A stretch of 64,000 bases of DNA from assembly GCF_025961225.1 (NCBI RefSeq), contig NZ_JAOQNG010000001.1, positions 2,948,001 to 3,012,000 on the forward strand, read 5' to 3'. This DNA comes from Azospirillum canadense (lineage in GTDB: Bacteria; Pseudomonadota; Alphaproteobacteria; Azospirillales; Azospirillaceae). How positions within the stretch are numbered: position 1 is the first letter of the stretch; every line of letters starts with the position of its first letter. The translations under genes were made by a program, and so were the position numbers. Under the pieces are notes generated by a model that was given only the letters and a program-made list of their open reading frames with translations, had not been told where the DNA came from and did no database searches. Shown here one piece after another: positions 26,833 through 44,490 of the stretch.

Positions 26833-27088
26833 GGCGGAACCTCATGGTGACGGTTGCCCATCCGGGCACGGGGTATTTACACCGGGGGGTCGCCGCGGCC
26901 GTTCCAGGGGAGCCTGGATCTCCGGTGCCACGATGCCGTGCGGACCGCCGGTGCCGACGGTGACAGCCGGCGCGATTCCTGGGATGAGATCCACGCCCCC
27001 TGGAAGGAGCCCAGGAGGTCGTGGACATTCGCCTGCCGCCGCTTCCAGGTGGGCTTGGACCGGCCTCAAACGCACCGGTGGGGACCCG

Positions 27089-27670
27089 TCAGACCAAGTC
27101 CACCAGCTTCCGCTTCGCCTCGGAGTCGCCCTCGATGTACCGGCTGGTGGTCTGGAGGCTGCGATGGCCGGCCATCTCCATCACGTCCTTCAACGACCCA
27201 CCGACCGTGCTGGCCTTCCTCGCCGCCGCGGTGATGAAGGTCCGCCGGCCGGAGTGGCTGCTGCACCCGGTAAAGCCCAAGCGGGTGTACAAGTCGTGGA
27301 ACCATCGGACGACTGATCCGGCCGACATCGACCGGCCCCGCTCGCTGTAGATGACCGGGTCCTCAGGCCGCGGCCTCCGGACCCGGTGCAATTCGATCAG
27401 GGCCTGTCGCAGGTCCCGGTTGAGTGGTATCTGCCGGCCGGACCGCATCTTGGCCGCTCTGTCCTCCAGGGCCAGCACTTCGGCGATGTCGCTGTTGGCG
27501 TCCATCACCATGCTCCAGGTGAGCATGGCGACCTCCCTGGCCCGCAACCCGGCCTTGGCCGACAGGAGGAACATGACCGTGTCGCGGGCCGCGTTGCGGG
27601 TCCCCGACAGGTACATCAACACCGCCCTGGATTGGGCCACCGTCAGCACCTTCGCCTGCTTCCCGGCCAT
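27089..27670 (-). CDS. Short tyrosine recombinase (left repeat copy)
   Basis: A 193-residue catalytic-domain-only tyrosine recombinase: AGLRAREVAMLTW (Arg I), SSHSGRRTFIT (HxxR), MAGHRSLQTTSRYIEG (His and nucleophile Tyr). The N-terminal SAM-like core-binding domain of XerC/integrases is missing, as in other minimal recombinases. The ATG at 27670 starts MAGKQAKVLTVAQSRAVL; a longer frame adds 17 residues. It reads outward from the BREX cargo. The identical copy at 41734-42315 faces the other way. Being inside the inverted repeat, it is a candidate enzyme for repeat-specific inversion. Confidence 0.8.
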   Translation of the reverse strand: MAGKQAKVLTVAQSRAVLMYLSGTRNAARDTVMFLLSAKAGLRAREVAMLTWSMVMDANSDIAEVLALEDRAAKMRSGRQIPLNRDLRQALIELHRVRRPRPEDPVIYSERGRSMSAGSVVRWFHDLYTRLGFTGCSSHSGRRTFITAAARKASTVGGSLKDVMEMAGHRSLQTTSRYIEGDSEAKRKLVDLV

Positions 27671-28030
27671 GTCGGACTCACAAGGAAATCGTCGATCTCC
27701 CGCAGGGTATGACGAGTCCAAAAGCTGTCAACGTGGCCCAGCCCGTGAACCCGTTGGAAACCCTCAATTCACAAGAGATCCCGGAAAAGATGGTGAGACT
27801 CCACGGCCCCATGAGGTGACCCGCCGCCGCTCCCGCAGAACGGCGCCGGACCCCTGGGGCTCGACCAACGCGGCCGTCACCTTACGCGATGGAACCCGCC
27901 CGTCGAGCCGGAAGCACTCGACCGACGGCATGATGTCATTTTGGTTCAAGCTGTGGTAATCAAAAGGGGCACCACCTTTGCGAGCCGGCTGGCCCGAAGC
28001 CTACCGGATGCGAACAGTCACGAGCGGGCT

Positions 28031-28501
28031 ATGGAAGCTGCCGATGCATGTCTGCACGCCATTGAAGAGGTTGCCGGATTGTACCATCGCCTCTTGCTTC
28101 TGGTAGGTACCGATCCGGCAACAGTGAGTGACTGCATCAAAAATGTGGCCGGCAGGTTCAACCTCCCGGTGACCAACCTGAATGCAGAGTTGGCAGCCAT
28201 GTTGTTGGAAGTGCCTTCTCGTCAGCGTCAGATAAGGGCCAACAAGGCAGTGGGTGACATTTTGGATTCCACGTCGATGGACATGGTCATGCTTGACCAT
28301 ACGGATCTCCTGTTCAGTCCCTCTCTCCGGCTCGACCCATTGGCTCTTTTGAAGAGCCTATCCAGGAACAAGACCATTGTTGCCGCATGGCCAGGGGCGG
28401 TAAGAGGGGACGTTCTGATGCACGCGGAAAACTGGCACCCAGAGTACCAGCAGCATCCTGTAGACGGTGTTCGGGTCTTCTCGGTTGATCAACAAAACTA
28501 A
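28031..28501 (+). CDS. brxF: BREX-3 P-loop protein BrxF
   Basis: A 156-residue protein: MEAADACLHAIEEVAGLYHRLLLLVG leads into a degenerate P-loop (LLLLVGTDPATVSD), then MVMLDHTDLLFSPSLRLDPLALLKSL and TIVAAWPG, the pattern of BrxF, first gene of type 3 BREX. The ATG at 28031 gives the family's usual length. A TTG at 27941 would add 30 residues untypical of BrxF. The 175 bases before it, from the repeat boundary at 27855, show no strong promoter match. It is followed at once by brxC, and the order of the six-gene operon supports the call. Confidence 0.82.
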   Translation: MEAADACLHAIEEVAGLYHRLLLLVGTDPATVSDCIKNVAGRFNLPVTNLNAELAAMLLEVPSRQRQIRANKAVGDILDSTSMDMVMLDHTDLLFSPSLRLDPLALLKSLSRNKTIVAAWPGAVRGDVLMHAENWHPEYQQHPVDGVRVFSVDQQN

Positions 28502-28534
28502 TGATTGTCAAACTATAAGCTGGGGCGCCAGGGT

Positions 28535-31500
28535 ATGAAGTACGGGGATTTGGTCAGGTTTGACCCAATTGAGTCGGTGATCGAGCTTCGTCACGCAGAC
28601 AAGGCGGAAAGGGCGAGAGCCCTGGTCGAGACTTATGTCATCTCCGACGAGATGGCCGACCGCCTGAAGTCTATCATCATTCCAAATCTCCAGTTCGAAA
28701 CCCCCTCTGACAACAAGGGGCTGCTGGTAGTCGGCAACTACGGTACCGGTAAGTCGCACCTGATGGCGGTGCTGTCCGCTTTGGCGGAAAACGCCGAGCT
28801 ATTGCCGTCGGTCCGCAACAACGCTGTGCGGACGGCAGCCGGTGCGATGGCTGGTCGGTTCAAGGTGGTGCGCACGGAGATCGGCTCAACCAAGATGCCG
28901 CTGCGGGACATCATCGTTCAGGAGATCGAAAGTCACCTCGCCGAGCTTGGCGTGGCCTACAGCTTTCCCCCCGCGGAGACCTTGAGGAACCACAAGGGCG
29001 CCTTTGAGGAGATGATGCGGGTATTCCACGAGGAATTCCCCGACCACGGACTGCTGATGGTCGTGGACGAGTTGCTCGACTACCTGCGGAGCCGCAACGC
29101 CCAGGATCTCATTCTCGACCTCGGCTTCCTCCGTGAGGTGGGGGAGGTCTGCAAGGATTTGCGCTTCCGGTTCGTCGCGGGCGTCCAGGAGGCGATCTTC
29201 AACAATCAACGGTTCTCCTTCGTCGCGGACGACCTGCGTCGGGTCCAGGCCCGGTTCGACCAGATCCTCATCGCGTCGCGCGACATCAAATACGTTGTGG
29301 CAGAGCGTCTCCTGCAAAAATCGGCTGACCAACAGTCGAAGATCCGGGCACACCTCTCCAAGTTCACCAAGTTCTACGGCCGCATGAACGAGCAGTTGGA
29401 CGAGTTCGTCCGGCTGTTCCCGATCCACCCGGACTATTTCTCAACCTTTGAACGTGTTCAGGTCGCGGAAAAGCGGGAGGTGCTGAAGACCATCTCGCAC
29501 TCCATCAAGCGGGTGCTGAACCACGATGTTCCAACGGGGCAGCCGGGGTTGATCGCGTACGATCAGTACTGGGCGACCTTGTCCACGGAACCGTCTCTCC
29601 GTGCGGTACCGGAGATCCGCGACGTGATCACATGCGCGACCACACTTGAAGATCGGATCGACAAAGCGTTCACCCGCCCCCAGTACAAGCCCCTGGCGAA
29701 GCGAATCATCCACGCCCTGTCGGTGCATCGCCTCACTACAGGGGACATTTACCGGCCGCTGGGTGCCACTCCGGAGGAGTTGCGGGACGGTTTGTGCCTC
29801 TTCCAGCCCGGCATTGAGGAGATGGGCGGCGATCCCGCCGAGGACCTCCTCACCCAAGTCGAGGCGGCGATCCGCGAGATCCACAAGACGGTGTCGGGCC
29901 AGTTCCTCACCATCAACAAGGAAAACCGGCAAGCCTACCTCGACCTGCGGAAGACCGACGATTACGACGCCCTGATCGACAAGCGGGCGGAGACCCTGAG
30001 CGACGACCAATTGAATCGCTACTACTACACCGCCCTGAAGCAGGCGATGGAGTTGACCGACGTTCCAACACAGGTGACTGGGTTCCATCTATGGCAGCGG
30101 GAACTGGAGTGGCGGGACCGCATGGTCACGCGTCGGGGCTATCTGTTCTTCGGAACGCCGAACGAGCGGGCAACAGCGATCCCGGTGAGGGATTTCTACA
30201 TTTACTTCCTCCAGCCCTTCGACACGCCGGTCTACAAGGACGAGCAGCGACAGGACGAGATGCTTCTGCGGTTGGACCAGCGTGACGAGACCTTCACCAA
30301 GGCGTTGCGGGGCTACGCGGGAGCCCTGGAGCAGTCGGCGTCGGCGTCCGGGCAGGCCAAGGACACCTACGATACGAAGGCTCGCGGGTATCTGAAGGCG
30401 CTCGTCGCGTGGCTCCGCGAGAACGCCACGCGCTGCTTCGAAGTCACCCACCAGGGCAAGTCTAAGTCGTTGTTGGAGTGGCTGAAGGGGGGCTCGGTTC
30501 GTGACCGATTGAACCTCGGACCGAATCAGACGGCCGACTTCCGACAGATCATCGATCTGGTGGGGTCTGTCTGCCTGTCCAAGTGGTTTGAGGAGCAAGC
30601 GCCGGAATATCCGACCTTCACACGTCTCCTGACTGCGGAGACGCGACGCACCGCCGTGGCGGATGCTCTGCGAGCCATCGCCGGTGGGCCGCGCACCCAG
30701 CAGGCAAATGCGGTTCTGGATGCCCTGGAATTGCTGGACGGCGACAAGATTCAGCCGACCAAGTCCCGGTACGCCAACCTCGTCCTGACGAAGCTCAAAG
30801 CCAAGGGACAGGGGCAGGTCGTCAACCGGTCGGAGTTGCTGGAAGATGACAACGGGGTGGAGTATTTCGCCGTCAAGCCGTTCCGCCTGGAGCCAGAATT
30901 GCTCCTCGTCGTGTTGGCCGCCCTTGTCCACGGCGGCCACCTCGTCCTTTCCATCCCCGGCGACAAGATCGACGCCACCAAACTCGGCACCTTGGCGGCG
31001 ACGCCGCTCGACGACGCTCTCCAATTCAAACATATCGAACAGCCGAAGGATCTGAACCTGCCGGCCATCCGGGCATTGTTCGATCTCCTGGGTCTCGGCG
31101 GTGGTCTCGCGAACAACGTCGCCCAAGGGCAGGATAAGCCGGTCACGGAACTCCAAGATAAGGTCGCCGCGTCGGTGAAGAAGCTGGTGGAGGTACGGCA
31201 CCAGATCGCGGGCGGGGTGAACTTCTGGAAGGCCCAGGTCATCGATGAGGCGGAGCGCGACAAGATCATCGTCAAGCTGGACGCTGCCAAGGCTTTCCTG
31301 GAGAGCCTCCAGGCGTTCAACAGCCCCGGCAAGCTGAAGAACTTCCGTCACGATGAAGCGGCGGTGAAGGAGCACGAAGCCGCGTTGGCGACCCTGACCC
31401 AGGCCGAACGGCTGGTGGAATTGATCCGCGATCTGATGCCTGAGGTCGGCTACATCTCGGAGGCGGAACTGGTGCTGCCCGTGGATCATCCATGGATGGC

Positions 31501-32290
31501 TCAAGTCACCGCCGTCAGGAACGCGGTGATCGCGGAACTGAAGGATGATGCCCGAAGGACGGAGACCGGCTTCGTGAAGTCGGTCAAGGACCGCATCGGC
31601 CAACTGAAGCGGGACTACGTCAAGGCGTATTCCGATCTGCACACCAGGGCGCGGCTGGGGCCATCCGACGACAGCAAACGGTCCCGCATCCTGCGCGACG
31701 ACCGGTTGGACGCCTTGCGGATGCTGGTGACCATCGACCTTCTGAACAAGGCCGAATTGACCGACCTCCAGAACGACCTCAACGGGCTGAAGGAGTGCTC
31801 GAAGCTCACGGAGACGGAGTTGGAGCAGCAACCGATCTGTCCCCACTGCAACTTCCGGCCGGCGGTCGAAAAGGTCGAGGTCTCCGCCTCGCAACGGCTG
31901 GATCAGTTCGGTGACCGGCTGGATCGGATTCTGCTGGGCTGGACGCAGAACCTCTACCTGAACCTCAAGGACCCCACCGTGAAGGAGTCCCTGGAACTGC
32001 TACCACCGGAGCAGAAGGGGCTGGTCGAGGACTTCCTGGAAGAAGCCGTCCTGCCGGACCCTGTGGACGCCCGCTTCGTCACCGCAGTGTCGGAGGCCCT
32101 GAAGGGGTTGCAGAAGGTGGTCTTGACCACCGACCAAATCCGGGACGCTTTGCTGAAGGGGGGCTCTCCCGCCGGCATCGAGGACCTCAAGGAGCGCTTC
32201 AAGGCATTCCTGGACGACGCGACCAAGGGCAAAGAGAAGAACAAGGTGCGGGTGGTCATCGCCGCCACCACCACCGACGGGAAGGATTGA
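28535..32290 (+). CDS. brxC: BREX-3 ATPase BrxC (DUF6079)
   Basis: A 1251-residue protein. It opens MKYGDLVRFDPIESVIELR, the usual DUF6079 start, so the ATG at 28535 is preferred over a TTG ten codons upstream. Walker A is VGNYGTGKSHLM (residues 66-77) and Walker B GLLMVVDELLDYL (near 172-184). A long helical middle and a C-terminal CPHC pair near residue 1101 follow. BrxC/PglY is the large AAA-type ATPase of BREX complexes, needed with PglX and PglZ for host-DNA methylation and phage exclusion. It overlaps none of its neighbours but is spaced tightly with them. Confidence 0.93.
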   Translation: MKYGDLVRFDPIESVIELRHADKAERARALVETYVISDEMADRLKSIIIPNLQFETPSDNKGLLVVGNYGTGKSHLMAVLSALAENAELLPSVRNNAVRTAAGAMAGRFKVVRTEIGSTKMPLRDIIVQEIESHLAELGVAYSFPPAETLRNHKGAFEEMMRVFHEEFPDHGLLMVVDELLDYLRSRNAQDLILDLGFLREVGEVCKDLRFRFVAGVQEAIFNNQRFSFVADDLRRVQARFDQILIASRDIKYVVAERLLQKSADQQSKIRAHLSKFTKFYGRMNEQLDEFVRLFPIHPDYFSTFERVQVAEKREVLKTISHSIKRVLNHDVPTGQPGLIAYDQYWATLSTEPSLRAVPEIRDVITCATTLEDRIDKAFTRPQYKPLAKRIIHALSVHRLTTGDIYRPLGATPEELRDGLCLFQPGIEEMGGDPAEDLLTQVEAAIREIHKTVSGQFLTINKENRQAYLDLRKTDDYDALIDKRAETLSDDQLNRYYYTALKQAMELTDVPTQVTGFHLWQRELEWRDRMVTRRGYLFFGTPNERATAIPVRDFYIYFLQPFDTPVYKDEQRQDEMLLRLDQRDETFTKALRGYAGALEQSASASGQAKDTYDTKARGYLKALVAWLRENATRCFEVTHQGKSKSLLEWLKGGSVRDRLNLGPNQTADFRQIIDLVGSVCLSKWFEEQAPEYPTFTRLLTAETRRTAVADALRAIAGGPRTQQANAVLDALELLDGDKIQPTKSRYANLVLTKLKAKGQGQVVNRSELLEDDNGVEYFAVKPFRLEPELLLVVLAALVHGGHLVLSIPGDKIDATKLGTLAATPLDDALQFKHIEQPKDLNLPAIRALFDLLGLGGGLANNVAQGQDKPVTELQDKVAASVKKLVEVRHQIAGGVNFWKAQVIDEAERDKIIVKLDAAKAFLESLQAFNSPGKLKNFRHDEAAVKEHEAALATLTQAERLVELIRDLMPEVGYISEAELVLPVDHPWMAQVTAVRNAVIAELKDDARRTETGFVKSVKDRIGQLKRDYVKAYSDLHTRARLGPSDDSKRSRILRDDRLDALRMLVTIDLLNKAELTDLQNDLNGLKECSKLTETELEQQPICPHCNFRPAVEKVEVSASQRLDQFGDRLDRILLGWTQNLYLNLKDPTVKESLELLPPEQKGLVEDFLEEAVLPDPVDARFVTAVSEALKGLQKVVLTTDQIRDALLKGGSPAGIEDLKERFKAFLDDATKGKEKNKVRVVIAATTTDGKD

Positions 32291-32297
32291 GTTCGCC

Positions 32298-35126
32298 ATG
32301 CCGAAGAACACCGACACCGGACACCTGCTGACGCCAGCCCAGCCCGATCTCTATGACACTTCGTACGAGGAGCGGGTTGAACGGGGCGAACTTCGCCCCG
32401 TGGAGTGCCTCGGCCGCACCTTTCCGTCTGACGATGCCCGGCGCGCCCACTACCTTGGGCTGCTCCGCGAGAAGCTGAAGGACCCCGCATTCCGCAACCA
32501 GCCGGGTTTCCCCGTCGGGAGCGACGAGGACATCCTGCGGCTGTCAGACCCGCCCTACTACACGGCCTGTCCGAACCCGTTCCTGGGCGAGTTCGCCCGG
32601 CACATCGGCACCCCGTACGACGCCGATGACGACACCTACTCCAGGGAGCCCTTCGCCATCGATGTCAGCGAAGGGAAGACCGACCCGCTCTACACCGCCC
32701 ACGGATACCACACGAAGGTTCCGCACAAGGCGATCATGCCAGCCATCCTGCATTATACGAAGCCGGGCGACGTAGTCCTGGACGGCTTCTGCGGGTCGGG
32801 CATGACCGGCGTCGCAGCCCAGATGTGCGGCTTCCCCGATGCGCCGTTGAAGAAGCAGATCGAGGACCAGTTCAAGCGGAACGGTTTGGACCGCCCCGTC
32901 TGGGGCCCCAGGAAAGCAATTCTGAACGATCTTTCGCCCGCCGCCACTTTCATCGCCGCCAACTACAACACGCCGTTCGATGTGAAGGCGTTCGAGCGGG
33001 AAGCAAAGCGCATCCTGAAGGAACTCCGGACTGAAATCGGGTGGATGTACGAGACCACCCATACCGATGGAAAGACCAAGGCAGTCATTGACTATGTGGT
33101 CTGGAGTGAAGTCTTTTCTTGTCCGGACTGTTCGGGCGAAATCGTGTTCGTAAAGGAAGCTCTCGATCCGGCGACAAAAAAAACCCGAGAGAAATTCCCC
33201 TGCCCTCATTGCGGGTGTGAGGTGAACAAGGACAGCCTGGAACGACGTTTCACCAATCTCGCCGACCCGGTGACGGGAGAGGCATGGGAGAGAATTCGGC
33301 TGGACCCCGTTCTGGTTTGCTACTCGATGGGGAAGAAAAAGTACCAAAAAGATCCTGACAGGACGGATATTGACATAATTTCCAGAGTGTCCTCCCTGCC
33401 GCTTCCTTCTGGGTTCCCGAGTTCAGCTTTCCCCGTCGAGAATATGTATCATGGGTCTCGGATTCAGCCGAAGGGGTTCACGCGGGTTCACCATTTCTTC
33501 CTGCCCCGAGCAGCACAGGCTCTTCATTCCGCATGGAAAAAATCGACCGAAGTCGGCGATGTTCGTCTACGGAATGCTCTGCTGTTCTTCTTCGAACAGG
33601 CGATCTGGGGCATGTCTGTATTGAACCGATATTCACCAAGTCATTTCTCCCAGGTAAATCGTCAACTAACCGGGGTTTACTACGTTGCATCGCAACATTC
33701 CGAAGTTTCTCCGTGGTATAATCTGGATGGAAAACTCGGGAGAATTGTAGCGGTCTTTAGTCGAAGCTATCACAGCGTCAATGGAGCGATGGTTCGGTGC
33801 GGTTCGGCGACCCATTTGGGCCTTCCCGAGCATGCGGTTGACTATATTTTTACCGACCCACCTTTTGGGGCGAACATATTCTACGCTGACCTCAACTACT
33901 TGGTAGAATCGTGGCATGGTGTCTGGACCAACGTCGGCCCCGAAGCAATTGTTGACAGCGCCAAGGACAAGACGCTGACCGACTACCAGAGGCTCATGCG
34001 GGACTGCTTCGCCGAGTATTTCCGGGTCCTAAAACCCGGCCGGTGGATGACGGTGGTGTTCCACAATTCCCAGAATGCCGTATGGAATGCGATCCAGGAG
34101 GCCCTGCTCTCCGTTGGCTTCATTATCGCCGACGTGCGTACCCTAGACAAGCAACAGGGGTCCTACCGGCAAGTCACCAGCACCGCTGTCAAGCAGGATC
34201 TGGTCATCTCGGCCTACAAGCCGTCGGAGCGGTTTGAGCGGAGCTTCGAGGTCAAGGCCGGCACCGATGACGGAGTCTGGGAATTCGTCGATGCCCACCT
34301 TGGGCAGCTTCCCGTATTTGTCTCGGCCAAGGAGGAGCAGGTGGACGTGGTGGCCGAAAGGCTGGACCATCGGCTGTTCGACCGGATGGTGGCGGTCCAT
34401 CTCCAGCGGAACGTGTCGGTTCCAATGTCGGTGGCTGCGTTCTACGCCGGTCTGGAGGATCGCTACCGCAAGCACGACGGCATGTACTTCCTCGCCACGC
34501 AGGAGGACGAGTACCTGAAGAAGCGGGCGAAGGTGCAGGAGGTTCGTCATCTGGAGATGTTCCCGGATAGTGAGGCCAACACGATCCAGTGGCTCCGGCA
34601 GGAACTGGGCCGCCGGCCGCGATCCTACGCCGACACCCAGCCGGAGTTCATGCGGTTGTCGGTGGGCTGGGCGAAGCACGAGAAGCCGGTGGAGTTGGCG
34701 GACATCCTGGACCAGAATTTCCTGCTGTATGACGGCACGGGCGACGTTCCGAGTCAGATCCATGCCTATCTTTCGACCAACTACAAGGAACTGCGCAACC
34801 GGCCCAAGGACGACCCTGAGCTTCGCCGGAAGGCCAAGGACCGATGGTACGTTCCCGATCCCAACAAGCTCCAGGACATGGAGGCGAAACGCGAGAAGCA
34901 GCTTCTCCGGGAATTCGACAGCCTTCTGGATTCCCGTGAGAAGCGGATCAAGCAGCCGCGTCACGAGGTGATCCGTGCCGGGTTCAAACGAGCCTGGGGC
35001 CTGCGAGACTACACCACCATCAAGGCCGCTGCTGCTAAGGTCCCCGAGGAGGTGATCCAGGAGGATCAGCAGCTATTGATGTGGTACGACATGGCAATGA
35101 CCCGGCTCGGTGAAGACGGGTTCTGA
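32298..35126 (+). CDS. pglX: BREX-3 adenine-specific DNA methyltransferase PglX
   Basis: A 942-residue DNA methyltransferase. The SAM motif I is GDVVLDGFCGSGMTGVAAQ (DGFCGSG at 162-168) and the catalytic motif IV is DYIFTDPPFGANIFY near 517-531. A second DPP motif, LSDPPYYTACPNPF at 82-95, precedes motif I. Between them lies a zinc-ribbon-like pair (CPDC ... CPHCGC, residues 274-308). It should methylate host DNA at N6-adenine in a non-palindromic BREX site, marking self. It starts 7 bases after brxC. Part of the middle (33100-33900) is noticeably more AT-rich than the ends. Confidence 0.92.
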   Translation: MPKNTDTGHLLTPAQPDLYDTSYEERVERGELRPVECLGRTFPSDDARRAHYLGLLREKLKDPAFRNQPGFPVGSDEDILRLSDPPYYTACPNPFLGEFARHIGTPYDADDDTYSREPFAIDVSEGKTDPLYTAHGYHTKVPHKAIMPAILHYTKPGDVVLDGFCGSGMTGVAAQMCGFPDAPLKKQIEDQFKRNGLDRPVWGPRKAILNDLSPAATFIAANYNTPFDVKAFEREAKRILKELRTEIGWMYETTHTDGKTKAVIDYVVWSEVFSCPDCSGEIVFVKEALDPATKKTREKFPCPHCGCEVNKDSLERRFTNLADPVTGEAWERIRLDPVLVCYSMGKKKYQKDPDRTDIDIISRVSSLPLPSGFPSSAFPVENMYHGSRIQPKGFTRVHHFFLPRAAQALHSAWKKSTEVGDVRLRNALLFFFEQAIWGMSVLNRYSPSHFSQVNRQLTGVYYVASQHSEVSPWYNLDGKLGRIVAVFSRSYHSVNGAMVRCGSATHLGLPEHAVDYIFTDPPFGANIFYADLNYLVESWHGVWTNVGPEAIVDSAKDKTLTDYQRLMRDCFAEYFRVLKPGRWMTVVFHNSQNAVWNAIQEALLSVGFIIADVRTLDKQQGSYRQVTSTAVKQDLVISAYKPSERFERSFEVKAGTDDGVWEFVDAHLGQLPVFVSAKEEQVDVVAERLDHRLFDRMVAVHLQRNVSVPMSVAAFYAGLEDRYRKHDGMYFLATQEDEYLKKRAKVQEVRHLEMFPDSEANTIQWLRQELGRRPRSYADTQPEFMRLSVGWAKHEKPVELADILDQNFLLYDGTGDVPSQIHAYLSTNYKELRNRPKDDPELRRKAKDRWYVPDPNKLQDMEAKREKQLLREFDSLLDSREKRIKQPRHEVIRAGFKRAWGLRDYTTIKAAAAKVPEEVIQEDQQLLMWYDMAMTRLGEDGF

Positions 35127-35141
35127 CGCCGGGAGTCGTTC

Positions 35142-37919
35142 ATGCTAGAGCCTGGGGGGTGGCGCTGGAGCCGGGACTACAGGCAGTTCTGCCGGGTCGT
35201 CGAGACGGAGACCCTGTGGGGGCAGAGCTTCTGCCGGGTCTGGCTCACCGGCCAGGACGTGATCGTCCGGGTGGCGGCCGACCGTCTCGACGACCTGGAG
35301 CCGGCCCTGGCGACGGAGGCCGACCGCATCACCTTCCTGGCGTCGGCGGCCCGCGTTTCCGAAGCGGTCGCGCACGACACGCTGCTGGCCCCCATCGCCG
35401 CCTCGGTGGTGCCCCTGCCGCACCAGATCACGGCCCTGTCGCGGGCAGTTTCGGACGACCGGGTCAGGTACCTGCTCGCGGATGAGGTTGGTCTGGGTAA
35501 GACCATCGAGGCGGGGCTGATTATCCGAGAGTTGAAGCTCCGGGGACGGGTGAAGCGGGTGCTGGTGCTGGCGCCTAAGGGGCTGGTGACGCAGTGGGTG
35601 GCCGAGATGCAGACCCATTTCGGCGAGGACTTCCGCCTCCTGCTCCCGAACGATTTCGCCGCCTACCGGCGGGTGACCGGGGAGGACAACATCTGGTCGG
35701 CCTTCGACCAAGCCATCGTCCCGATGGACTCCGTCAAACCCTTGGACAAACGGCGGGGGTGGAGCCGGGAGCGCATCGCCGCGTTCAACCGCGACCGCTT
35801 CAACGACCTGATCGCCGCCAACTGGGACTTGGTGGTGGTCGATGAGGCCCATCGTCTCGGCGGAAGTACCGATCAGGTCGCCCGGTTCAAGCTCGGGCAG
35901 GGGTTGGCAGAGGCGGCGCCCTACCTCCTGCTGCTGTCGGCGACCCCGCACCAGGGCAAGACCGACAACTTCCACCGGCTGGTCTCGTTGCTCGACGCCA
36001 AGATGTTCCCCGACACGGGCAGCGTGACCAGGGAGCGCGTTGCTCCGTACGTGATCCGGACCGAGAAGCGGGATGCCGTGGACTGGGACGGCAAGCCCCT
36101 GTTCCGCCCCCGCCAGACGCAGTTGTTCCAGGTGGGCTGGCAGCACCGCCACGACCTTCAGCGACAGCTTTACGAGGCGGTCACCGACTACGTCCGGTTC
36201 GGGTACGCCCAAGCCCTGAAGCAAAAGAAGCGGCACATCGGTTTCCTGATGATCCTGATGCAGCGGCTGGTGACCTCGTCCACCGCCGCCATCCGGGCAA
36301 CCCTGGAGCGGCGCCTGGAGATCCTGGCGGAACCGGACGACCAGCTTTCCCTCTTCCCCGCCATGGACGACGATGATTTCTCCGAGATGGACGCCCAGGA
36401 CGCCCTGGATGCCCTGATTCACGCCCGCTCGGCCAATCGCAACGAGCGGGCCGAGATCCAGGTGTTGCTCGACCTTGCAAAGCGGACCGAAGCGGCGACG
36501 GCGGACGTGAAGGCGGAGGCCCTGCTGGACACCGTCTACCGGCTACAGCAGGAGGAAGCCGATCCGAACCTCAAGGTGCTGATCTTCACCGAGTTCGTGC
36601 CGACCCAGGCGATGTTGGCCGCATACCTCGAACAGCGGGGTTTCGCCGTTGTCATCCTCAACGGCTCCATGGACATGGATGAGCGGCGGGAGGTGCAGCG
36701 GGCGTTCGCCGACGAGGCTCGGGTGCTGATTTCGACCGATGCGGGCGGCGAGGGTCTGAACCTCCAGTTCGCGCATGTCGTCATCAATTTCGACCTGCCG
36801 TGGAACCCGATGCGGTTGGAGCAGCGGATCGGCCGCGTGGACCGTATTGGCCAGCGACACACCGTGCGGGCCATCAACTTCACCCTCCAAGGCACCGTGG
36901 AGAGCCGCGTTCAGGAGGTGCTGGAGAGCAAGCTGGCGGTCATCTTCGAGGAGTTTGGGGTGGACAAGGCCGGCGACGTGCTCGACTCGGGGCGGGCCGA
37001 GCAGTTGTTCGATGACCTGTACGTCGAGGCGATCCGCGACCCGGATCGGGTAAACGAGATGGTCAACACCCTCGTGGAACAGATCCGCGACGACGCCCGC
37101 TCGGGCCGGGCTGCCTTTTCCGTACTCGGCCCCGCCCAGAACATCAATCAAGATGAGGCTCGCCGAATCATGGATCATCCGATGCCCGCCTGGGTGGAAA
37201 GGATGATGGTCAGCCACGTGCGCGCCCAGGGGGGCGTTGCCGAACGCCGGGAGCGGGCGTGGTCGTTGACATGGCCGGGCGGCGAGACGTGGCCGAAGGT
37301 TTCCTTCAGCCCGCCGACAACCGACACCTCGCCCGACCTTGTTCATATGGGTCTGGAGAACGAGCGGGTTCGCGGCCTGACCCTGGGAATCCCCCGGTTT
37401 TCGGAAGGACAGCCAATTCCGGTCGTCCGCCTTGCCGGTATCTCCGGCGATCTGGCCGGCATCTGGTCGCTGTGGCGGGTCGCGCTTCAGGCCGGCGACT
37501 GGAAGCGACAGCGGATCGTCCCCGTGTTCGTGCACGATGACGGACGAGTCCTCGGGCCTACCGCCCGTCACATTTGGGACCGGCTGCTCACCGACGACGT
37601 GAGCGTGATTGGCTACCGCGATGGGGCCCTGGCCGCGACATTGGCCGCGCGCAGCCAGCGGGAAGCGGAACCCCACTGCCGGCCCGCCTATGATGAACTT
37701 CTCACCGCCCACCGAGCCCACCTGGACCTGGAGAGGGAACGCAATCAGCATTCCTTCGCCGTGCGGCGAAAAGCCATCGAGAGCATCGGTTTGCCCCAGG
37801 TAAGGGTTCACCGCCTCACCAAGCTGGAGCAGGAGGCGGCGGCGTGGCAACAAGCGGTGGACGCGATGACGCGGGTGGTACCGACGCTCGACCCGCTGCT
37901 GATGATCACCTTGGGATGA
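35142..37919 (+). CDS. brxHII: BREX-3 SNF2-type helicase BrxHII
   Basis: A 925-residue SF2 helicase: PHQITALSRAV Q-motif region, Walker A LADEVGLGKTIEAGLI (112-127), VVVDEAHRLGG (DEAH near 233), LLLSATPHQGKTDN, then STDAGGEGLNLQFAHVVINFDLPWNPM and the QRIGRVDRIGQ arginine-finger motif near 560. This is the DEAD/SNF2-like helicase specific to type 3 BREX. It follows pglX by 15 bases and precedes pglZ by 7. The C-terminal 300 residues are unlike ordinary SNF2 proteins and may contact other BREX subunits. Confidence 0.92.
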   Translation: MLEPGGWRWSRDYRQFCRVVETETLWGQSFCRVWLTGQDVIVRVAADRLDDLEPALATEADRITFLASAARVSEAVAHDTLLAPIAASVVPLPHQITALSRAVSDDRVRYLLADEVGLGKTIEAGLIIRELKLRGRVKRVLVLAPKGLVTQWVAEMQTHFGEDFRLLLPNDFAAYRRVTGEDNIWSAFDQAIVPMDSVKPLDKRRGWSRERIAAFNRDRFNDLIAANWDLVVVDEAHRLGGSTDQVARFKLGQGLAEAAPYLLLLSATPHQGKTDNFHRLVSLLDAKMFPDTGSVTRERVAPYVIRTEKRDAVDWDGKPLFRPRQTQLFQVGWQHRHDLQRQLYEAVTDYVRFGYAQALKQKKRHIGFLMILMQRLVTSSTAAIRATLERRLEILAEPDDQLSLFPAMDDDDFSEMDAQDALDALIHARSANRNERAEIQVLLDLAKRTEAATADVKAEALLDTVYRLQQEEADPNLKVLIFTEFVPTQAMLAAYLEQRGFAVVILNGSMDMDERREVQRAFADEARVLISTDAGGEGLNLQFAHVVINFDLPWNPMRLEQRIGRVDRIGQRHTVRAINFTLQGTVESRVQEVLESKLAVIFEEFGVDKAGDVLDSGRAEQLFDDLYVEAIRDPDRVNEMVNTLVEQIRDDARSGRAAFSVLGPAQNINQDEARRIMDHPMPAWVERMMVSHVRAQGGVAERRERAWSLTWPGGETWPKVSFSPPTTDTSPDLVHMGLENERVRGLTLGIPRFSEGQPIPVVRLAGISGDLAGIWSLWRVALQAGDWKRQRIVPVFVHDDGRVLGPTARHIWDRLLTDDVSVIGYRDGALAATLAARSQREAEPHCRPAYDELLTAHRAHLDLERERNQHSFAVRRKAIESIGLPQVRVHRLTKLEQEAAAWQQAVDAMTRVVPTLDPLLMITLG

Positions 37920-37926
37920 TGCTGAC

Positions 37927-39888
37927 ATGAATTGGGTCGATGCGGTCACGAAGGACCTGAATCCGGAAATCGCCCCACTCGTTGCGGTCATCGACCCCGA
38001 CGGCATCTTCCGCGAGGAGGCTGTGCTCGCCGCCGTACAGGCCAGAGGTTACGCCGTCGTCCAGTTCGAGGACGAAATCCAGTTCCGCGTCGAATTTGAG
38101 GCGAAGTTCCGGGGCCGGGAGGATAGGCACCTTCTGATCGTGCACCACGGTGGGCGACGGGAAGACCTGCCCTACGATTTGGTGTCGGCCGCGACGGTGG
38201 TGTCGGCCAGCCTGCCCTCCTTGTTTCCAAACCTCAGCTACCCCGTCCTCCGCGGTTTGGACCCGAACGACCTTCCGGTGTTGTTTGGCGTGCAGCAGGC
38301 GGAGAACCCCAGTCGGATGAACGACGGAGAGACCAAGAAGTTCGCCCTGCTCCACGTCTACGGGATCGTCCCGGAGCTTCTTCGGTCGCCGGCCGATCTG
38401 CTTCGGGAACTTCTTCGTCTCCACCACGCGGCGCGAACCCTTCCGCCGGTGTTGGCGAACTGGTTGGTGGAGCGGCTGAAGGTATCCGGGGGGCTGAGCG
38501 GGTACCCGCTGGACGACATAGTCACCGACCGCTCCGTGTTCTTCTCCTTCCTTCAGCGGCGCTGGACAGCCTTCCTTTACAAGTTGGCCAGACTGCCCTT
38601 GCCGGAATCCATTGAGCCGTTGCCCGATGTGCCGTTCGACCACCCGAATGTGAGGGTCTACATTGACAACCTGTTCATCGACGGCACCCTCTCGCCGGTG
38701 GAGTTTCCGTATGACCTGAACACTGGCGACGAATGGGTGCAGGTCGGCGTCGCCGGCGCTGGCGACGAGGGGACCCGAAACCAAGACCGCCTTGCCAGAC
38801 TCCTGCCGGTTTTGGAACACGACGTGCCGGATGAAGATGCTCGGGCAAGAGCGTGGACCGCCTTTGCCTACCGCTGGGCGGAGGCGTCAGTACTGTGGCA
38901 CCGGCTCAATCCCGCAACCAAGACCGAGTTTGCCTCGCAGTTCCAGGGGCTCCAGAATCTGATCGACGACCGTTTCGAACGGTGGCTCACCCTGCGGTAT
39001 TCCGGTCTGCACAGCCAGCCCCCGGTGCCGCCCGCCGTGCTGCACCACGTACCGCGGTCGATGGCACGGCGGTTGGAGGACCGCAAGGCCAGAAAGGCGG
39101 CGCTGCTTGTCCTGGACGGCTTGGCCCTTGACCAGTGGCTGCTCCTCAAGGATGCGGTGGTCGCCGCCGTGCCAACCAGCACCACCATGGTGGAGGAAGC
39201 GGTTTTTGCCTGGATTCCTACTTTGACCTCGGTCAGCCGGCAGGCGTTGTTCTCCGGCCGGCCGCCGATCCAGTTTGCCGGGTCTATCGCGACCACGGCG
39301 AAAGAAAAGGCACAATGGCTCCAGTTCTGGATGGACCACGGGTACACCAGCAAGCAGGTCGAATACCGCAAGGGTTTGGGCGTCCAAGGAGATCTTCTTC
39401 AAATAGAAGAGCTTGCCTCCAATCCCAACGTCAAGGTAGTTGGTCTCGTCGTGGATAAAATCGACAAGATCATGCACGGCATGGAGCTTGGAATGGGCGG
39501 GATGCATAATCAGATTGACCTATGGGCTCGGTCAGGATACTTGTCCGCCCTCGTCAAGCTGCTTTTGGACAATGAGTTCCACATCGTCATCACCTCCGAC
39601 CACGGGAACGTGGAGGCGTCGGGAATCGGCCGCCCGTCGGAAGGGGCAATAGCCGAAGAGCGGGGAGAGCGCGTGCGGACCTACTCCTCCCAGCTATTGC
39701 GCGAGCAGATGATGAAAGCCTGTCCCACGGCGGTGCAGTGGGCCCCCGTAGGGCTTCCGGCCGATTACCTTCCCCTTCTCGCCCGCGGCCGGGACGCGTT
39801 TGTTCCGGCGGGGGAGGTCGTTGTTGGACATGGCGGTGCCTCTATCGAGGAGGTAATCGTCCCATTCATTCGTATCGAAGGACTGTAG
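37927..39888 (+). CDS. pglZ: BREX-3 alkaline-phosphatase-fold protein PglZ
   Basis: A 653-residue PglZ. The alkaline-phosphatase-like metal sites are visible: LLVLDGLALDQWLLLKD near residue 392, then LTSVSRQALFSGRPP, and IITSDHGNVEASGIG near 553, followed by GHGGASIEEVIVPF. The N-terminal half is the PglZ-specific region. PglZ is the core gene by which BREX loci are recognised; it is needed for both methylation and defence. Its TAG is followed directly by the ATG of brxA. Confidence 0.94.
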   Translation: MNWVDAVTKDLNPEIAPLVAVIDPDGIFREEAVLAAVQARGYAVVQFEDEIQFRVEFEAKFRGREDRHLLIVHHGGRREDLPYDLVSAATVVSASLPSLFPNLSYPVLRGLDPNDLPVLFGVQQAENPSRMNDGETKKFALLHVYGIVPELLRSPADLLRELLRLHHAARTLPPVLANWLVERLKVSGGLSGYPLDDIVTDRSVFFSFLQRRWTAFLYKLARLPLPESIEPLPDVPFDHPNVRVYIDNLFIDGTLSPVEFPYDLNTGDEWVQVGVAGAGDEGTRNQDRLARLLPVLEHDVPDEDARARAWTAFAYRWAEASVLWHRLNPATKTEFASQFQGLQNLIDDRFERWLTLRYSGLHSQPPVPPAVLHHVPRSMARRLEDRKARKAALLVLDGLALDQWLLLKDAVVAAVPTSTTMVEEAVFAWIPTLTSVSRQALFSGRPPIQFAGSIATTAKEKAQWLQFWMDHGYTSKQVEYRKGLGVQGDLLQIEELASNPNVKVVGLVVDKIDKIMHGMELGMGGMHNQIDLWARSGYLSALVKLLLDNEFHIVITSDHGNVEASGIGRPSEGAIAEERGERVRTYSSQLLREQMMKACPTAVQWAPVGLPADYLPLLARGRDAFVPAGEVVVGHGGASIEEVIVPFIRIEGL

Positions 39889-40650
39889 ATGAACACGAGC
39901 CCGGTGGTCGGCTTCAACCAGCGCATCAAGCTGGAGTGGATGGCGGCGACCGCCAGGATGGTGACAAGCGGGTCCCCGTATAGTGAAATTGTCGGGGGTC
40001 TTCGTGAACTGCTGAAGGACGAACTCTCGGTTGGCGGTGACCCAGAGCGGGGCAACCGAGAAAAGGCGATCACCATCTTGAAGCGGATTTGGCTGACAGT
40101 GGATGAGCAAAACATTCAGTTGCGAGACGACGGACTCGCATTGCTTGTCCGGCTGCCAAACCACCTTCATGTTGCCGTTCACTGGTCCATGGCGATGGCC
40201 GCATACCCGTTTCTTGGCGAGGTCGCCCAGGTGGTTGGGCGTCTTCTTCAGCTTCAGGACGAAGTCGCCGCTACCCAGGTTCAACGTCGGCTTCGGGAGC
40301 GTTTCGGAGAACGTGAGACAGTTGCGCGGGCGGCACGGCGAGTGCTTCGTACGTTTATTGATTGGGGGGTTCTACAAGAATCTGGTGTGAAGGGTATCTA
40401 CCACCCTGTACCGCGGGTGTCTCTGAAGGACGACATACTGCTCTCGTGGATGGCCGAAGCATTCATCCGTTGTTTCGATAACCAGATGCGGTCGGTTGAG
40501 GAAATACGGCGAGCCCTCGCCTTCTTCCCGTTTGATACTACGCCTCTTGACACGACCGCTTTGCCGTCGAATGCGCGGCTGGAGGTGTTTCGGCAGGGAG
40601 TCGGTGAGGTTTTGGTGAGGATCAGCAAACGAGAGGCGATTGATCACTGA
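39889..40650 (+). CDS. brxA: BREX protein BrxA-like (DUF1819)
   Basis: A 253-residue helical protein. It starts GFNQRIKLEWMAATARMVTSG, then MAMAAYPFLGEVAQVVGRL, QRRLRERFGERETVARAARRVLRTFIDWGVL and DILLSWMAEAFIRC, consistent with BrxA, the small DNA-binding-like subunit at the end of type 3 operons. Identification leans on position (last gene, zero-base gap after pglZ) as well as sequence. Helical wing-like segments near residues 125-170 (RRVLRTFIDWGVLQESGVKGIYHP) suggest a winged-helix module. Confidence 0.78.
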   Translation: MNTSPVVGFNQRIKLEWMAATARMVTSGSPYSEIVGGLRELLKDELSVGGDPERGNREKAITILKRIWLTVDEQNIQLRDDGLALLVRLPNHLHVAVHWSMAMAAYPFLGEVAQVVGRLLQLQDEVAATQVQRRLRERFGERETVARAARRVLRTFIDWGVLQESGVKGIYHPVPRVSLKDDILLSWMAEAFIRCFDNQMRSVEEIRRALAFFPFDTTPLDTTALPSNARLEVFRQGVGEVLVRISKREAIDH

Positions 40651-41548: not shown

Positions 41549-41733
41549 AGGGGTCCGGCGCCGTTCTGCGGGAGCGGCGGCGGGTCACCTCATGGGGCCG
41601 TGGAGTCTCACCATCTTTTCCGGGATCTCTTGTGAATTGAGGGTTTCCAACGGGTTCACGGGCTGGGCCACGTTGACAGCTTTTGGACTCGTCATACCCT
41701 GCGGGAGATCGACGATTTCCTTGTGAGTCCGAC

Positions 41734-42315
41734 ATGGCCGGGAAGCAGGCGAAGGTGCTGACGGTGGCCCAATCCAGGGCGGTGTTGATGTACCTGTCGG
41801 GGACCCGCAACGCGGCCCGCGACACGGTCATGTTCCTCCTGTCGGCCAAGGCCGGGTTGCGGGCCAGGGAGGTCGCCATGCTCACCTGGAGCATGGTGAT
41901 GGACGCCAACAGCGACATCGCCGAAGTGCTGGCCCTGGAGGACAGAGCGGCCAAGATGCGGTCCGGCCGGCAGATACCACTCAACCGGGACCTGCGACAG
42001 GCCCTGATCGAATTGCACCGGGTCCGGAGGCCGCGGCCTGAGGACCCGGTCATCTACAGCGAGCGGGGCCGGTCGATGTCGGCCGGATCAGTCGTCCGAT
42101 GGTTCCACGACTTGTACACCCGCTTGGGCTTTACCGGGTGCAGCAGCCACTCCGGCCGGCGGACCTTCATCACCGCGGCGGCGAGGAAGGCCAGCACGGT
42201 CGGTGGGTCGTTGAAGGACGTGATGGAGATGGCCGGCCATCGCAGCCTCCAGACCACCAGCCGGTACATCGAGGGCGACTCCGAGGCGAAGCGGAAGCTG
42301 GTGGACTTGGTCTGA
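41734..42315 (+). CDS. Short tyrosine recombinase (right repeat copy)
   Basis: Identical to the 193-residue protein at 27089-27670, with the full R...HxxR...H...Y set. The 185 bases between the repeat boundary and this start are also identical in both arms, so both copies should share promoter elements. Two identical expressed copies facing away from each other give dosage but no obvious division of labour. The 256 bases after it, up to the 72-codon gene, hold no gene. Confidence 0.8.
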   Translation: MAGKQAKVLTVAQSRAVLMYLSGTRNAARDTVMFLLSAKAGLRAREVAMLTWSMVMDANSDIAEVLALEDRAAKMRSGRQIPLNRDLRQALIELHRVRRPRPEDPVIYSERGRSMSAGSVVRWFHDLYTRLGFTGCSSHSGRRTFITAAARKASTVGGSLKDVMEMAGHRSLQTTSRYIEGDSEAKRKLVDLV

Positions 42316-42571
42316 CGGGTCCCCACCGGTGCGTTTGAGGCCGGTCCAAGCCCACCTGGAAGCGGCGGCAGGCGAATGTCCACGACCTCCTGGGCTCCTT
42401 CCAGGGGGCGTGGATCTCATCCCAGGAATCGCGCCGGCTGTCACCGTCGGCACCGGCGGTCCGCACGGCATCGTGGCACCGGAGATCCAGGCTCCCCTGG
42501 AACGGCCGCGGCGACCCCCCGGTGTAAATACCCCGTGCCCGGATGGGCAACCGTCACCATGAGGTTCCGCC

Positions 42572-42790
42572 ATGATCACCGACATCCGCCGCAACTCCGC
42601 CTCCTGCTGCCACACCGCCGTCCTGGTTCTGGACCTCCTGAACTGGTCCCGGTTCCACAGTTTCTTCCACGACGGCGAGAACGGCGTCACGATCCTGGAT
42701 GCCCGCCAGGACGGCGAGGACCGGATTGTTGTGCGGGCTCAATGCTCGTCCCAGGCCGTCCTGGACCGGCTCACCGACGCTTGGGCTTGA
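42572..42790 (+). CDS. Small hypothetical protein, 72 residues (right repeat copy)
   Basis: Identical to 26614-26832. The ribosome site GAGG precedes the ATG by 7 bases. The last codons run into GGGC-TTGA-GCCC, a short perfect stem overlapping the stop, and then the first of the two 20-bp repeats. The function is unknown. Confidence 0.55.
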   Translation: MITDIRRNSASCCHTAVLVLDLLNWSRFHSFFHDGENGVTILDARQDGEDRIVVRAQCSSQAVLDRLTDAWA

Positions 42791-42801
42791 GCCCACTGCC
42801 C

Positions 42802-42882
42802 ATAAAGGGGGGAAAGCGTTCTACCAACTAAAAGGCACCGCTCTCCCTTGCCAAACCCGGAATAAGGGGGGGAAAGTGTTCT
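42802..42882 (+). repeat. Pair of 20-bp direct repeats (right copy)
   Basis: ATAARGGGGGGAAAGYGTT occurs at 42802 and at 42862, differing at two positions. The exact 60-base period (nearly six helical turns) would put bound proteins on similar faces. The mirror pair is at 26522-26602. Confidence 0.6.
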
Positions 42883-43363
42883 TCTCCGAAGGAGAAGACC
42901 CACTCCCCCGCCTCACTCCTGGCCTGCCAAGACAGACCAAGCCTAACACTGGGGCTCGCCGCCCCAATCTCGGGCTTCGCCCTCGATTTGGGACTGCTCC
43001 GCCCCGTGTTGGTGACTGCGTCATCGACATGGCATCGGGCCATGCCGTCCTGATCTGGGTCATGGTCGCACCTGCGGTGCCCGCCCTTCGCGGTCTCGCT
43101 TCGCTCGTCCGCTCCGTCCGGCACCGTGTCCTGGTACGGGAGGGGGGCGGAGCCGTACCGATCCTGCCGCCGGCCCCCTGGCCGGCTCGGGCCCGCTTTC
43201 GCTGGCGGAGCCAGCGTGTTGCCGACCTCCTCGCCTCAAACCCGATTGGGCTCGTTCCAGGCGTTGGCCGCGCCGTAGGCGTGGCCAACGAGCCTCTCCC
43301 CGTTGGCATCCCGGTTCCGGTCAGCACCAGCGTGAACCCTGGCCCAGGCCGGCCTGGAACCAG
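42874..43363. other. GC-rich multi-hairpin region (right copy)
   Basis: Mirror image of 26041-26530: the same ten or so stem-loops in reverse order, ending about 145 bases before the HNH-like gene. The tandem G-A hairpin is best formed by RNA made from the minus strand here (plus strand in the left copy), that is, from a transcript running inward towards BREX. Confidence 0.65.
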
Positions 43364-43509
43364 CATACGGCCACCGCAACCGTCTGGCCGAGTCTCCAGA
43401 ATGGCCGGGGGCAGGATGGGGTTCTGCCAAGAACAAAGTCACGGCTGGAGTTTCGACCAGAAAAGATGCGGCATGGTATAAAGTATTTCCAGAAAAATGG
43501 AAGAATTGT

Positions 43510-44049
43510 ATGAAGAAACCCAGACCAATTGAGGAACGGCTGATCGAAAACAGCGAGTATGTTCCAGGAACCGGATGCTTGATCTGGAAGGGTCGGGTGG
43601 ACAAGAACGGGTACCCCGAGATCAAAGTCGATGGACGGCGCGTGAGCGTCCGCCCGCTGGCCTACGCCGTCTTCCGGGGCGAGCCACTCCACTCCGATCT
43701 GGTTTCCCGCCCACAGATCCAGATGACGTGCGGCGACCGATGCTGCATCCACCCCGACCACATGACGGTGAAGTCGGACGAGGATCGGCTGCTCACCCAG
43801 ATCAAGCAGGAGGTCTACCAGTGGGCCCAGATCAAGGCCGATGCCAATTCCCGCTTCCGGTTCATGACGAGACCAGAGTACATCGAGGCTGAAGCCCGCA
43901 AGCAGTTGGAAGTCCGGATCGCCGCCAGCCAGCCGCCCAGCCCCGAGATCCAGGACATCCTGGACCGGCTCCGCCGACGTTCTGTTGGCCTCCAGCAAGG
44001 CCACGATGGCACCGAGCCCCTGGGCGATCCCCGCCCCTTGCCTCGCTGA
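43510..44049 (+). CDS. HNH-endonuclease-like protein (right repeat copy)
   Basis: Identical to 25355-25894. The start MKKPRPIEERLIENSEY has GGAAG six bases upstream, in a short AT-rich stretch (TATAAAGTATTTCC) that could hold its promoter. The gene reads towards attR. Confidence 0.7.
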   Translation: MKKPRPIEERLIENSEYVPGTGCLIWKGRVDKNGYPEIKVDGRRVSVRPLAYAVFRGEPLHSDLVSRPQIQMTCGDRCCIHPDHMTVKSDEDRLLTQIKQEVYQWAQIKADANSRFRFMTRPEYIEAEARKQLEVRIAASQPPSPEIQDILDRLRRRSVGLQQGHDGTEPLGDPRPLPR

Positions 44050-44413
44050 CCGGCGACATCGCCGCGCCGCAGCGGGTGACCATCGCAGCATCGGCAGGAG
44101 AGATTCCATAGGAGTCTGGGGCCACATCCATGTTGCTCTGGAACCCGCTCCCGCTGTGGCGGGTCCAGACAGCCATCCCGAACAGGGCTGACTGAATCCA
44201 CACCGTCATGGATTTCCCCAAGATCCATGTGGTCCTGGAAATCCTCAGCCAAGCCGCGATGAGACCGGGGTAACGCGCGGACCGACACAGGCGAACATGC
44301 CCGCGCACTGCCGCACGGCCGTCTGCCACGCCCCTCCCCGGACAAGATCGTCTCGACGGCTGGCGAAGAGCGACCGACAATGCCAACCGACGATCCTGAT
44401 CGAGGGCTACATG
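44050..44413. other. Outer part of the right arm, with integrase start signals
   Basis: No gene of its own. At its end GAGGG-CTAC-ATG (ATG at 44411) opens a frame that passes through the att core in phase with the integrase as it would be joined on the circle. Here, after integration, that frame instead runs into chromosomal sequence and is meaningless. Confidence 0.55.
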
Positions 44414-44435
44414 TCGATCCTCCTCGGCTCCACCA
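44414..44435 (+). other. Attachment core, right (attR)
   Basis: The same 22 bp as the tRNA end at 22328-22349, in direct orientation. To its right lies the sequence that originally followed the tRNA gene. Confidence 0.92.
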
Positions 44436-44467
44436 ATTCCCCCTCGCGGTCGAGGGGATGGACGATG

Positions 44468-44490
44468 AAGCGGCCTGGGGCCGCTTTTTT
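44468..44490 (+). terminator. Intrinsic terminator, original terminator of tRNA-Ala
   Basis: AAGCGGCC-TGG-GGCCGCTT followed by TTTT, 33 bases beyond attR. No rightward gene ends here now. Before the island inserted, this hairpin would have stood 33 bases behind the tRNA. Confidence 0.8.

Follow-up and report, generated by a model that had tools for sequence, protein, structure and literature searches.

Attachment sites within the gene of their own integrase are known from the archaeal suicidal integrases of SSV1, pTN3 and pT26-2, which have been described as exclusive to archaea (PMC8371274) and whose families carry the domain Phage_integr_3 (PF16795) (PMC8371274). For ICEKp1, ICEEc1 and ICEclc it is the int promoter that moves between the ends of the element upon excision (PMC13023037), and in mycobacteriophages such as BPs an integration-dependent immunity is tied to the attachment site (PMC4557955). 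The gene affected in immunity of the BPs type is the repressor. The yeast 2-micron plasmid is circular and contains a pair of long inverted repeats, with a tyrosine-recombinase site in each.

The island analysed here, one of a family of Azospirillum islands, resembles the archaeal suicidal integrases of SSV1, pTN3 and pT26-2 (PMC8371274) in that attP lies inside the gene and, putatively, in that integration would separate the gene and excision would require intact integrase from elsewhere. It differs from them in that it belongs to a bacterium and encodes a DUF6538 integrase, that the cut would remove only the start codon and a promoter-like region instead of dividing the protein, and that the gene could be restored via a further attP that the element contains. 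Because Phage_integr_3 (PF16795) is absent from its integrase, for which Pfam gives DUF6538, Phage_integrase and Phage_int_SAM_5, we describe the latter as working like a suicidal integrase, and not as a member of that family. With ICEKp1, ICEEc1 and ICEclc the island shares an integrase gene located beside a tRNA gene on the same strand, a displaced tRNA flank and, putatively, a right-end promoter (P3'end and Pcir in the known elements) that reads into int on the circle. Their switch, as described in that paper, is transcriptional, whereas here the start codon itself would move, and a second, inverted attP is present in addition; the paper describing those elements (PMC13023037) contains no mention of 'start codon' or 'translation'. 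In contrast to BPs-type mycobacteriophages, the part affected here would be the integrase's own start. The 2-micron plasmid provides an analogy of layout only, since our island integrates at a tRNA gene and is not known to amplify. As inferred from sequence alone, the island combines features of suicidal integrases and of promoter switching, in a bacterium, in another integrase family, and together with an inverted second attP. A search of titles and abstract openings in the open-licence literature revealed neither an integrase start codon that is moved by integration nor two inverted attP sites in one island, nor any paper on DUF6538.

The island and the integrase frame across the core

The window, that is, the whole stretch of 64,000 nucleotides that was analysed (G000:C1:2948001-3012000), comes from a genome of 9.73 Mb in 10 contigs and contains an island inserted at a tRNA-Ala(CGC) gene (22274-22349, + strand), its integration target. 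A 22-nt core is present in three identical copies: in attL at the tRNA gene (22328-22349, +), at an internal site in inverted orientation (24969-24990, -), and in attR (44414-44435, +). The integrase gene adjoins the tRNA gene on the same strand, and the downstream flank of the latter is displaced to the other end of the island (44436-44490, +), where it contains the sequence GCGGCC-TGG-GGCCGC-T6. A similar flank is found 3' of uninterrupted tRNA-Ala sites in G037, G043 and G011; a terminator scan gave no call at this sequence.

Comparison of repeats within the window delineates a right arm next to attR (41549-44413, +), which recurs together with the core (41549-44435) as an exact inverted copy of 2887 bp at 24969-27855 (-). 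Likewise, the left attachment arm (22328-22793) has an exact inverted copy of 466 bp at 24525-24990 (-). The internal site thus represents right arm, core and integrase 5' end, i.e., the junction of the circle in inverted orientation; an ATG (24993-24991) followed by the core and a truncated integrase N-terminus opens a frame of 171 aa there (24478-24993, -). Between both copies of the right arm resides a BREX-like cargo (27941-40650, +; brxF at 27941, brxC at 28505, pglXI at 32298, brxHI at 35142, pglZ at 37927 and brxA at 39889), which was called by matches to BREX models (PADLOC; Pfam was also run) and which we take to be a type III BREX. Its flanking by perfect inverted repeats of 2887 bp means that homologous recombination could flip the whole defence cluster. 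No conjugation gene was named among those ORFs of the window that were given to Pfam and PADLOC, although no dedicated search was made.

In the integrated state, the integrase frame spans 22350-24025 (+) and matches DUF6538, Phage_int_SAM_5 and Phage_integrase in Pfam (E-values of 2.3e-20 and 3.5e-10, given for DUF6538 plus Phage_integrase), without a start common to its relatives. The frame is closed upstream by TAG 22316-22318, which the sequence of the tRNA itself provides, and candidate starts are limited to TTG 22370, TTG 22400 and GTG 22409 5' of the domain, and to ATG 22538 and GTG 22550 within the first residues of DUF6538. An earlier note on this stretch had claimed that the integrated frame possesses only weak TTG, GTG or late ATG starts downstream of a TAG in the tRNA. 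This claim held, with the refinement that the late ATG (22538) falls at the third residue of the DUF6538 match.

At the other end of the island, the sequence GAGGG-CTAC-ATG (44402-44413, +), composed of a ribosome-binding-like site (44402-44406), a spacer (44407-44410) and a start codon (44411-44413), directly precedes the core. When the right arm is joined in silico to the left arm at the core, as it would be on the circle, a single frame of 566 aa results from ATG 44411. The earlier note's claim that this ATG is in phase through the core and yields 566 residues is thus confirmed, but a further in-frame ATG at 44297, in a frame closed only by TGA at 44189, implies that 566 aa is not the longest reading. 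That the frame runs through the core, with attP lying inside the coding frame of the integrase, is shown by the sequence; which start is actually used remains an inference.

An arm-like inverted repeat of 35 bp lies inside the 5' coding stretch of the integrase, with one copy at 22421-22455 (+) and its partner at 22715-22749 (-), that is, at 94-128 and 388-422 from the core. It is listed in 7 of 10 sequences, the exceptions being the attL copy of G044, G080 and G002, and a search for the 35-bp motif in the right arms found it absent from all seven arm sequences. The repeat may possibly be an arm site of the integrase, and part of the conservation of the stretch between core and domain (the 'extension') may then be at the level of DNA. 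The RNA structure of the attL leader is not unusual (z -0.21). A structure model of the integrase was uninformative on the extension, with a mean pLDDT of 58.4 and residues 1-197, including DUF6538, all below 50.

Start codons in the left and right arms of related elements

Some match to the integrase, mostly distant, exists in 37 of the 45 genomes of the genus; no relatives were found in viral contigs, and those on plasmids show only <60% identity. The comparison covered 12 attL copies located at tRNA-Ala (window, G044, G018, G020, G080, G016, G002, G022, G017, G025, G006 and G023); starts were counted in 8 attL together with 4 internal copies, and later in all 12 attL copies. Whole integrases are present only in the window, G044, G018 and G080; the others are broken by an insertion (G020), by deletion or divergence (G017, G022, G006, G023) or at contig ends (G016, G002, G025). 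The core and the residues GLW of the domain (GLS in G006) are separated by exactly 67 stop-free codons in 12/12 copies, with a mean nucleotide identity over this stretch of 0.70 and a minimum of 0.50, and an in-frame TAG is present in the tRNA in all copies except that of G002, which is located at tRNA-Ala(GGC). Gaps occur in 2 of 181 alignment columns of the extension versus 121 of 249 upstream of the tRNA; this comparison is not matched for divergence, as the mean identity is 0.54 upstream of the tRNA and 0.70 in the extension.

No start position is common to all 12 copies. Position 42 from the core (TTG 22370 in the window) is the commonest one before the domain and provides a start in five copies, among the four whole integrases only in that of the window; positions 69 and 81 do so in two copies each, and G020 is devoid of any ATG, GTG or TTG before the domain. 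The commonest position overall is 222 (GTG 22550 in the window), which lies inside the domain and carries ATG or GTG in 7/12 copies, including three of the four whole integrases; it is GTC in G044, itself whole. ATG 22538 is present in one of the 12 copies, and was for this reason rejected as the start. Hence, the two candidates by which the earlier note would have considered its idea refuted, TTG 22370 and ATG 22538, are both weak, and GTG 22550, which it did not name, is the most frequent one yet inside the domain, and remains a possible late start.

For comparison, we considered six integrases that are encoded beside tRNA-Glu or tRNA-Gln and all match DUF6538; other related integrases adjacent to tRNA genes (tRNA-Gln, tRNA-Thr, tRNA-Ser) were left out of this control set. 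In 6/6 controls a start is located 4-6 codons before the DUF6538 match (GTG in G015, G031 and G029, TTG in G037, ATG in G046 and G034), the starts having been picked by the analyst from a list of candidates. The tRNA-Ala attL copies have a start at this place in 0/12 cases, the nearest being an ATG 2 codons before the domain (G022) and a GTG 9 codons before it (G023). By sequence, a well-placed start is thus absent at attL, although the alternative starts at positions 42 (5/12) and 222 (7/12) are not excluded. One control, G037, resembles the tRNA-Ala copies in that its sole start is a TTG and its frame extends open into the tRNA. No second exact copy of the 18-nt core was found for attR of the control elements in the stretches examined; allowing two mismatches in G015 and G031 yielded one further copy, in G015.

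Whether the extension is translated cannot be read from substitution ratios, which give no support for coding. In 9 sequences, dN/dS of codons 28-66 is 0.64-0.69 in the true frame, and other frames score alike (0.64-0.67 in the reverse frame, 0.77-0.79 in the +1 frame); codons 8-27 yield 1.1-2.3 and DUF6538 yields 0.27-0.28. Since the +1 frame of codons 28-66 is stop-free in these sequences as well, an open frame is not decisive by itself. The case for beheading of the integrase rests instead on the constant in-frame length in 12/12 copies, on the start missing at its usual place, and on the start that is found across the core.

Right arms were collected for six elements by similarity of protein or DNA, without requiring a start codon (window, G044, G018, G080, G022 and G027). 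As the DNA search scored ~9 candidates per genome, further arms may have escaped it, and six is to be read as at least six; the right arms of G020, G017, G016, G002, G006, G023 and the tRNA copy of G025 were not identified and stand outside the count. In 6/6 elements an ATG or GTG in the integrase frame immediately precedes the core or lies at its edge, namely ATG-TCG-ATC in the window, ATG-ACC in G044 and G027, ATG-ATC in G022, GTG-TCC in G018 and ATG-CCC in G080, and stands in each of them two or three codons before CTC-CTC-GGC. The presence of these right-arm start codons is shown and exceeds chance: over the ends of the seven arm sequences, only 2.1-3.0% of positions carry an ATG or GTG. 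The six elements represent about four arm types and are not fully independent, the last ~85 bp of G018 being 77% alike to those of G044. In G044 and G022 an in-frame TGA 5 codons upstream makes the ATG at the core edge the first possible start. Shine-Dalgarno-like stretches are seen in the window, G080 and G018, and no clear one precedes the ATG in G044, G022 and G027.

In the window, a promoter-like pair CTCGAC-N18-GACAAT is located at 44352-44381 (+). The pair (with N19 in G080) ends 36-38 nt before CTCCTCGGCTCCACCA in all seven arm sequences of the six elements, G027 contributing two. Its spacing suits a promoter, and it would move along with the start codon, an addition to the earlier note; promoter activity is inferred, and a scan with the E. 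coli sigma-70 consensus gave no match. Those five arms that were found solely by a start-codon pattern (G025, G037 twice, G078, G079) lack it. Because the latter search demands a TG ahead of the core, it is blind to misses, and the 6/6 count does not draw on it; class-wide, the pattern RTGNNCCTCCTCGGCTCCACCA occurs in 1 of 385 genomes. Overall, the claim that integration moves the translation start is supported by open frames in 12/12 attL copies, by control-like starts in 0/12 of them versus 6/6 controls, and by starts in 6/6 right arms, although it remains an inference.

Several further observations concern the right arms. The ATG-core sites of G037 (two) and G025 are associated with another arm type that has CTTGAC upstream; those of G037 are not followed by an integrase, and that of G025 is followed by a frameshifted integrase start. 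The internal right arm of G027, on contig C33, is 99.8% identical to that of G044, and its own attR arm differs (~83% and 92% in two stretches), a comparison from which right arms appear to be exchanged as modules. A serine resolvase-like protein is encoded in the right arms of G044 (Pfam Resolvase) and, by similarity, of G080, G018, G022 and G027; the right arm of the window gave no match to it. The gene of G044 is located at L087:6269-6910 (-), and the copies of G018 and G022 are only ~29-31% identical to those of G044, G080 and G027. A small product of 72-80 aa is common to the right arms of the window (42572-42787, 72 aa, no Pfam match), G044, G018, G022 and G027; in the attR arm of G027 it lies within an ORF of 122 aa.

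A second, inverted attP inside the island

The inverted internal junction recurs in G044, in G080, which belongs to another genus, in G018 and in G027, and this recurrence is likewise shown. In G044 the inverted right arms extend over 2854 bp with 100% identity and the integrase ends over 566 bp with 91% identity; the corresponding values for G080 are 3740 bp with 99.97% and 641 bp with 99.84%. For the draft genome G018, contig C187 ends in the start of the right arm and the core; this end is overlapped by the start of C201 (internal) and also by that of C355 (attR), and the opposite end of C187 leads into a single contig. G027 possesses an inverted pair whose arms agree at 83% and 92% over two stretches, and its internal copy is truncated by a contig end. 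Recurrence of this internal inverted attP across the family is an addition to what the earlier note had proposed.

The last codon of the integrase fragment at the internal site is approximately 155 (window), 187 (G044 and G018, which have the same junction), 185 (G022) and 213 (G080). Since it ends at different codons between elements, its C-terminus is not conserved, and we do not favour the view that the fragment is a conserved separate protein. The shortest fragment, that of the window, still covers both arm-like repeats, and we infer that the differing ends are more readily explained if the attachment site, rather than a protein, has been retained.

The earlier note had further claimed that inversion at the internal attP restores the gene. 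An inversion made in silico between attL and the internal core indeed yields the same 566-aa gene at the internal site and leaves a fragment of 170 codons at the tRNA; that such inversion takes place is inferred. In all four elements whose orientation is readable (window, G044, G080 and G018) the whole integrase is located at the tRNA, i.e., in what we call the OFF state. No genome in the ON state, which itself is an inferred one, was found.

The same layout is seen at tRNA-Met in elements from a further genus of the family (L105/L107, G079:C1:2071069-2135233; L127/L128, G078:C1:2263347-2327094): one core adjoins the tRNA, a second sits internally in inverted orientation together with the arms of both ends, and a third is distal. 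Their inverted arms comprise 3963 bp with 100% identity in G079 and are rearranged in G078. In G079 the duplicated arm contains an entire 366-aa Phage_integrase ORF, which is located ~70 nt downstream of an ATG-core site of the tRNA-Ala type and is out of its frame. The tRNA-Met element of G079 thus possesses an inverted second attP even though its integrase is not beheaded, which counts against the explanation proposed below. The cargo of the G044 island (L033:10553-18669) includes genes for HsdR-like (type I restriction), ParA-like and Mrr-like proteins, the Mrr-like one being convergent with the integrase.

Proposed working, rival readings and significance

We consider it likely that integration beheads the integrase by leaving its start codon at attR. 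No protein, transcript, circle, expression, excision or inversion data stand behind this beheading or behind a switch, both of which rest on sequence only. In the proposed working, the island would be an integrative element with the gene of its tyrosine integrase extending across the attachment site. In the circular form, the promoter-like pair and an ATG or GTG would come from the right arm and read through the core into the integrase, and Int would be made. Upon integration into tRNA-Ala, promoter and start would stay with attR, and the body of the gene would be located beside the tRNA without a proper start (OFF). The second attP, kept inverted inside the element and composed of right arm, start, core and ~0.47-0.64 kb of integrase 5' sequence, would mean that the circle holds two inverted attP sites. 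If integration went via the one beside the whole integrase, OFF would result; if it went via the other, the interior of the island would contain a whole integrase complete with its start (ON). The two states would be interconverted through Int- or homology-driven inversion, for which attL and the internal attP would serve as end points. It is tempting to speculate further that the choice of attP, or a later inversion, is a heritable choice between a beheaded, locked and a whole, active integrase, so that the island would represent a bacterial suicidal integrase with a built-in reset and an absorbing OFF state. We put this bolder reading forward tentatively, with doubt outweighing belief: the four OFF elements out of four fit an absorbing OFF state, and are also compatible with no switching at all.

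Two rival readings deny the moved start. Even when integrated, the island might make Int from a non-canonical or late start, with the transcript arising at the tRNA promoter; candidates are TTG 22370, TTG 22400, GTG 22409, ATG 22538, and GTG 22550, which lies in the first strand of DUF6538. The ATG of the right arm would then be incidental. In ICEKp1, transcription of the tRNA indeed reads into int (PMC13023037); a start is present at position 42 in 5/12 attL copies and an ATG or GTG at position 222 in 7/12, including 3/4 whole integrases, and G022 has an ATG just before the domain. However, no position is common to all copies, position 222 is GTC in the whole integrase of G044, and a start there would leave the DUF6538 match without its first residues. 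Moreover, this reading, which we regard as unlikely, leaves unexplained why an in-frame start exists in 6/6 right arms and an open extension of constant length in 12/12 left ones. Even less probable, in our view, is that the extension is only an attachment arm with its spacing set by arm-binding sites of Int, the protein starting downstream. The 35-bp inverted repeat in 7/10 sequences and a dN/dS not distinct from that of other frames speak for it, but arm sites alone would neither keep 12/12 copies in frame and stop-free over 67 codons nor put a start codon into that frame in 6/6 right arms, and the repeat is not listed for three copies.

The internal site, in turn, might be an inert remnant of an old duplication, its inverted attP and integrase N-terminus being kept alike by gene conversion without any role in switching. 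This is consistent with the differing 3' ends of the fragments, with the lack of an ON-state genome and with the frameshift in the copy of G025. Against it stand the recurrence of the site in two genera with start codon, core and >=466 bp of the integrase side, and the fact that the right arms are 100% (G044) or 99.97% (G080) identical within an element and only patchily alignable between elements. On balance we lean marginally away from an inert remnant. That the inverted repeats are an artefact of assembly might be suspected from the 100% identity of both repeat pairs in the window; it is virtually ruled out, and we reject it, since the architecture recurs in diverged form in other genomes, with the same layout in G044 (integrase 5' copies 91% identical) and in G080 (isolated mismatches), and with contigs of the draft genome G018 ending at the expected overlaps.

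If beheading of the integrase by integration holds true, integration itself would silence the recombinase, which would lose its start codon and probably also its promoter, and so constitute a mobility lock that requires no regulator. The island would then provide a bacterial case of a self-disrupting integrase, a type said to be restricted to archaea (PMC8371274), with a second, inverted attP able to undo the lock. Since start codons and promoter-like sites are conserved and attP sites are paired, beheading and switch are open to direct test. If the inverted second attP of the unrelated tRNA-Met elements is taken in as well, the layout with two attP sites would turn out to be a more general architecture of islands. 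Finally, since at least two of the islands, those of the window and of G044, carry genes for phage defence or restriction, the switch would bear on the spread of such genes.
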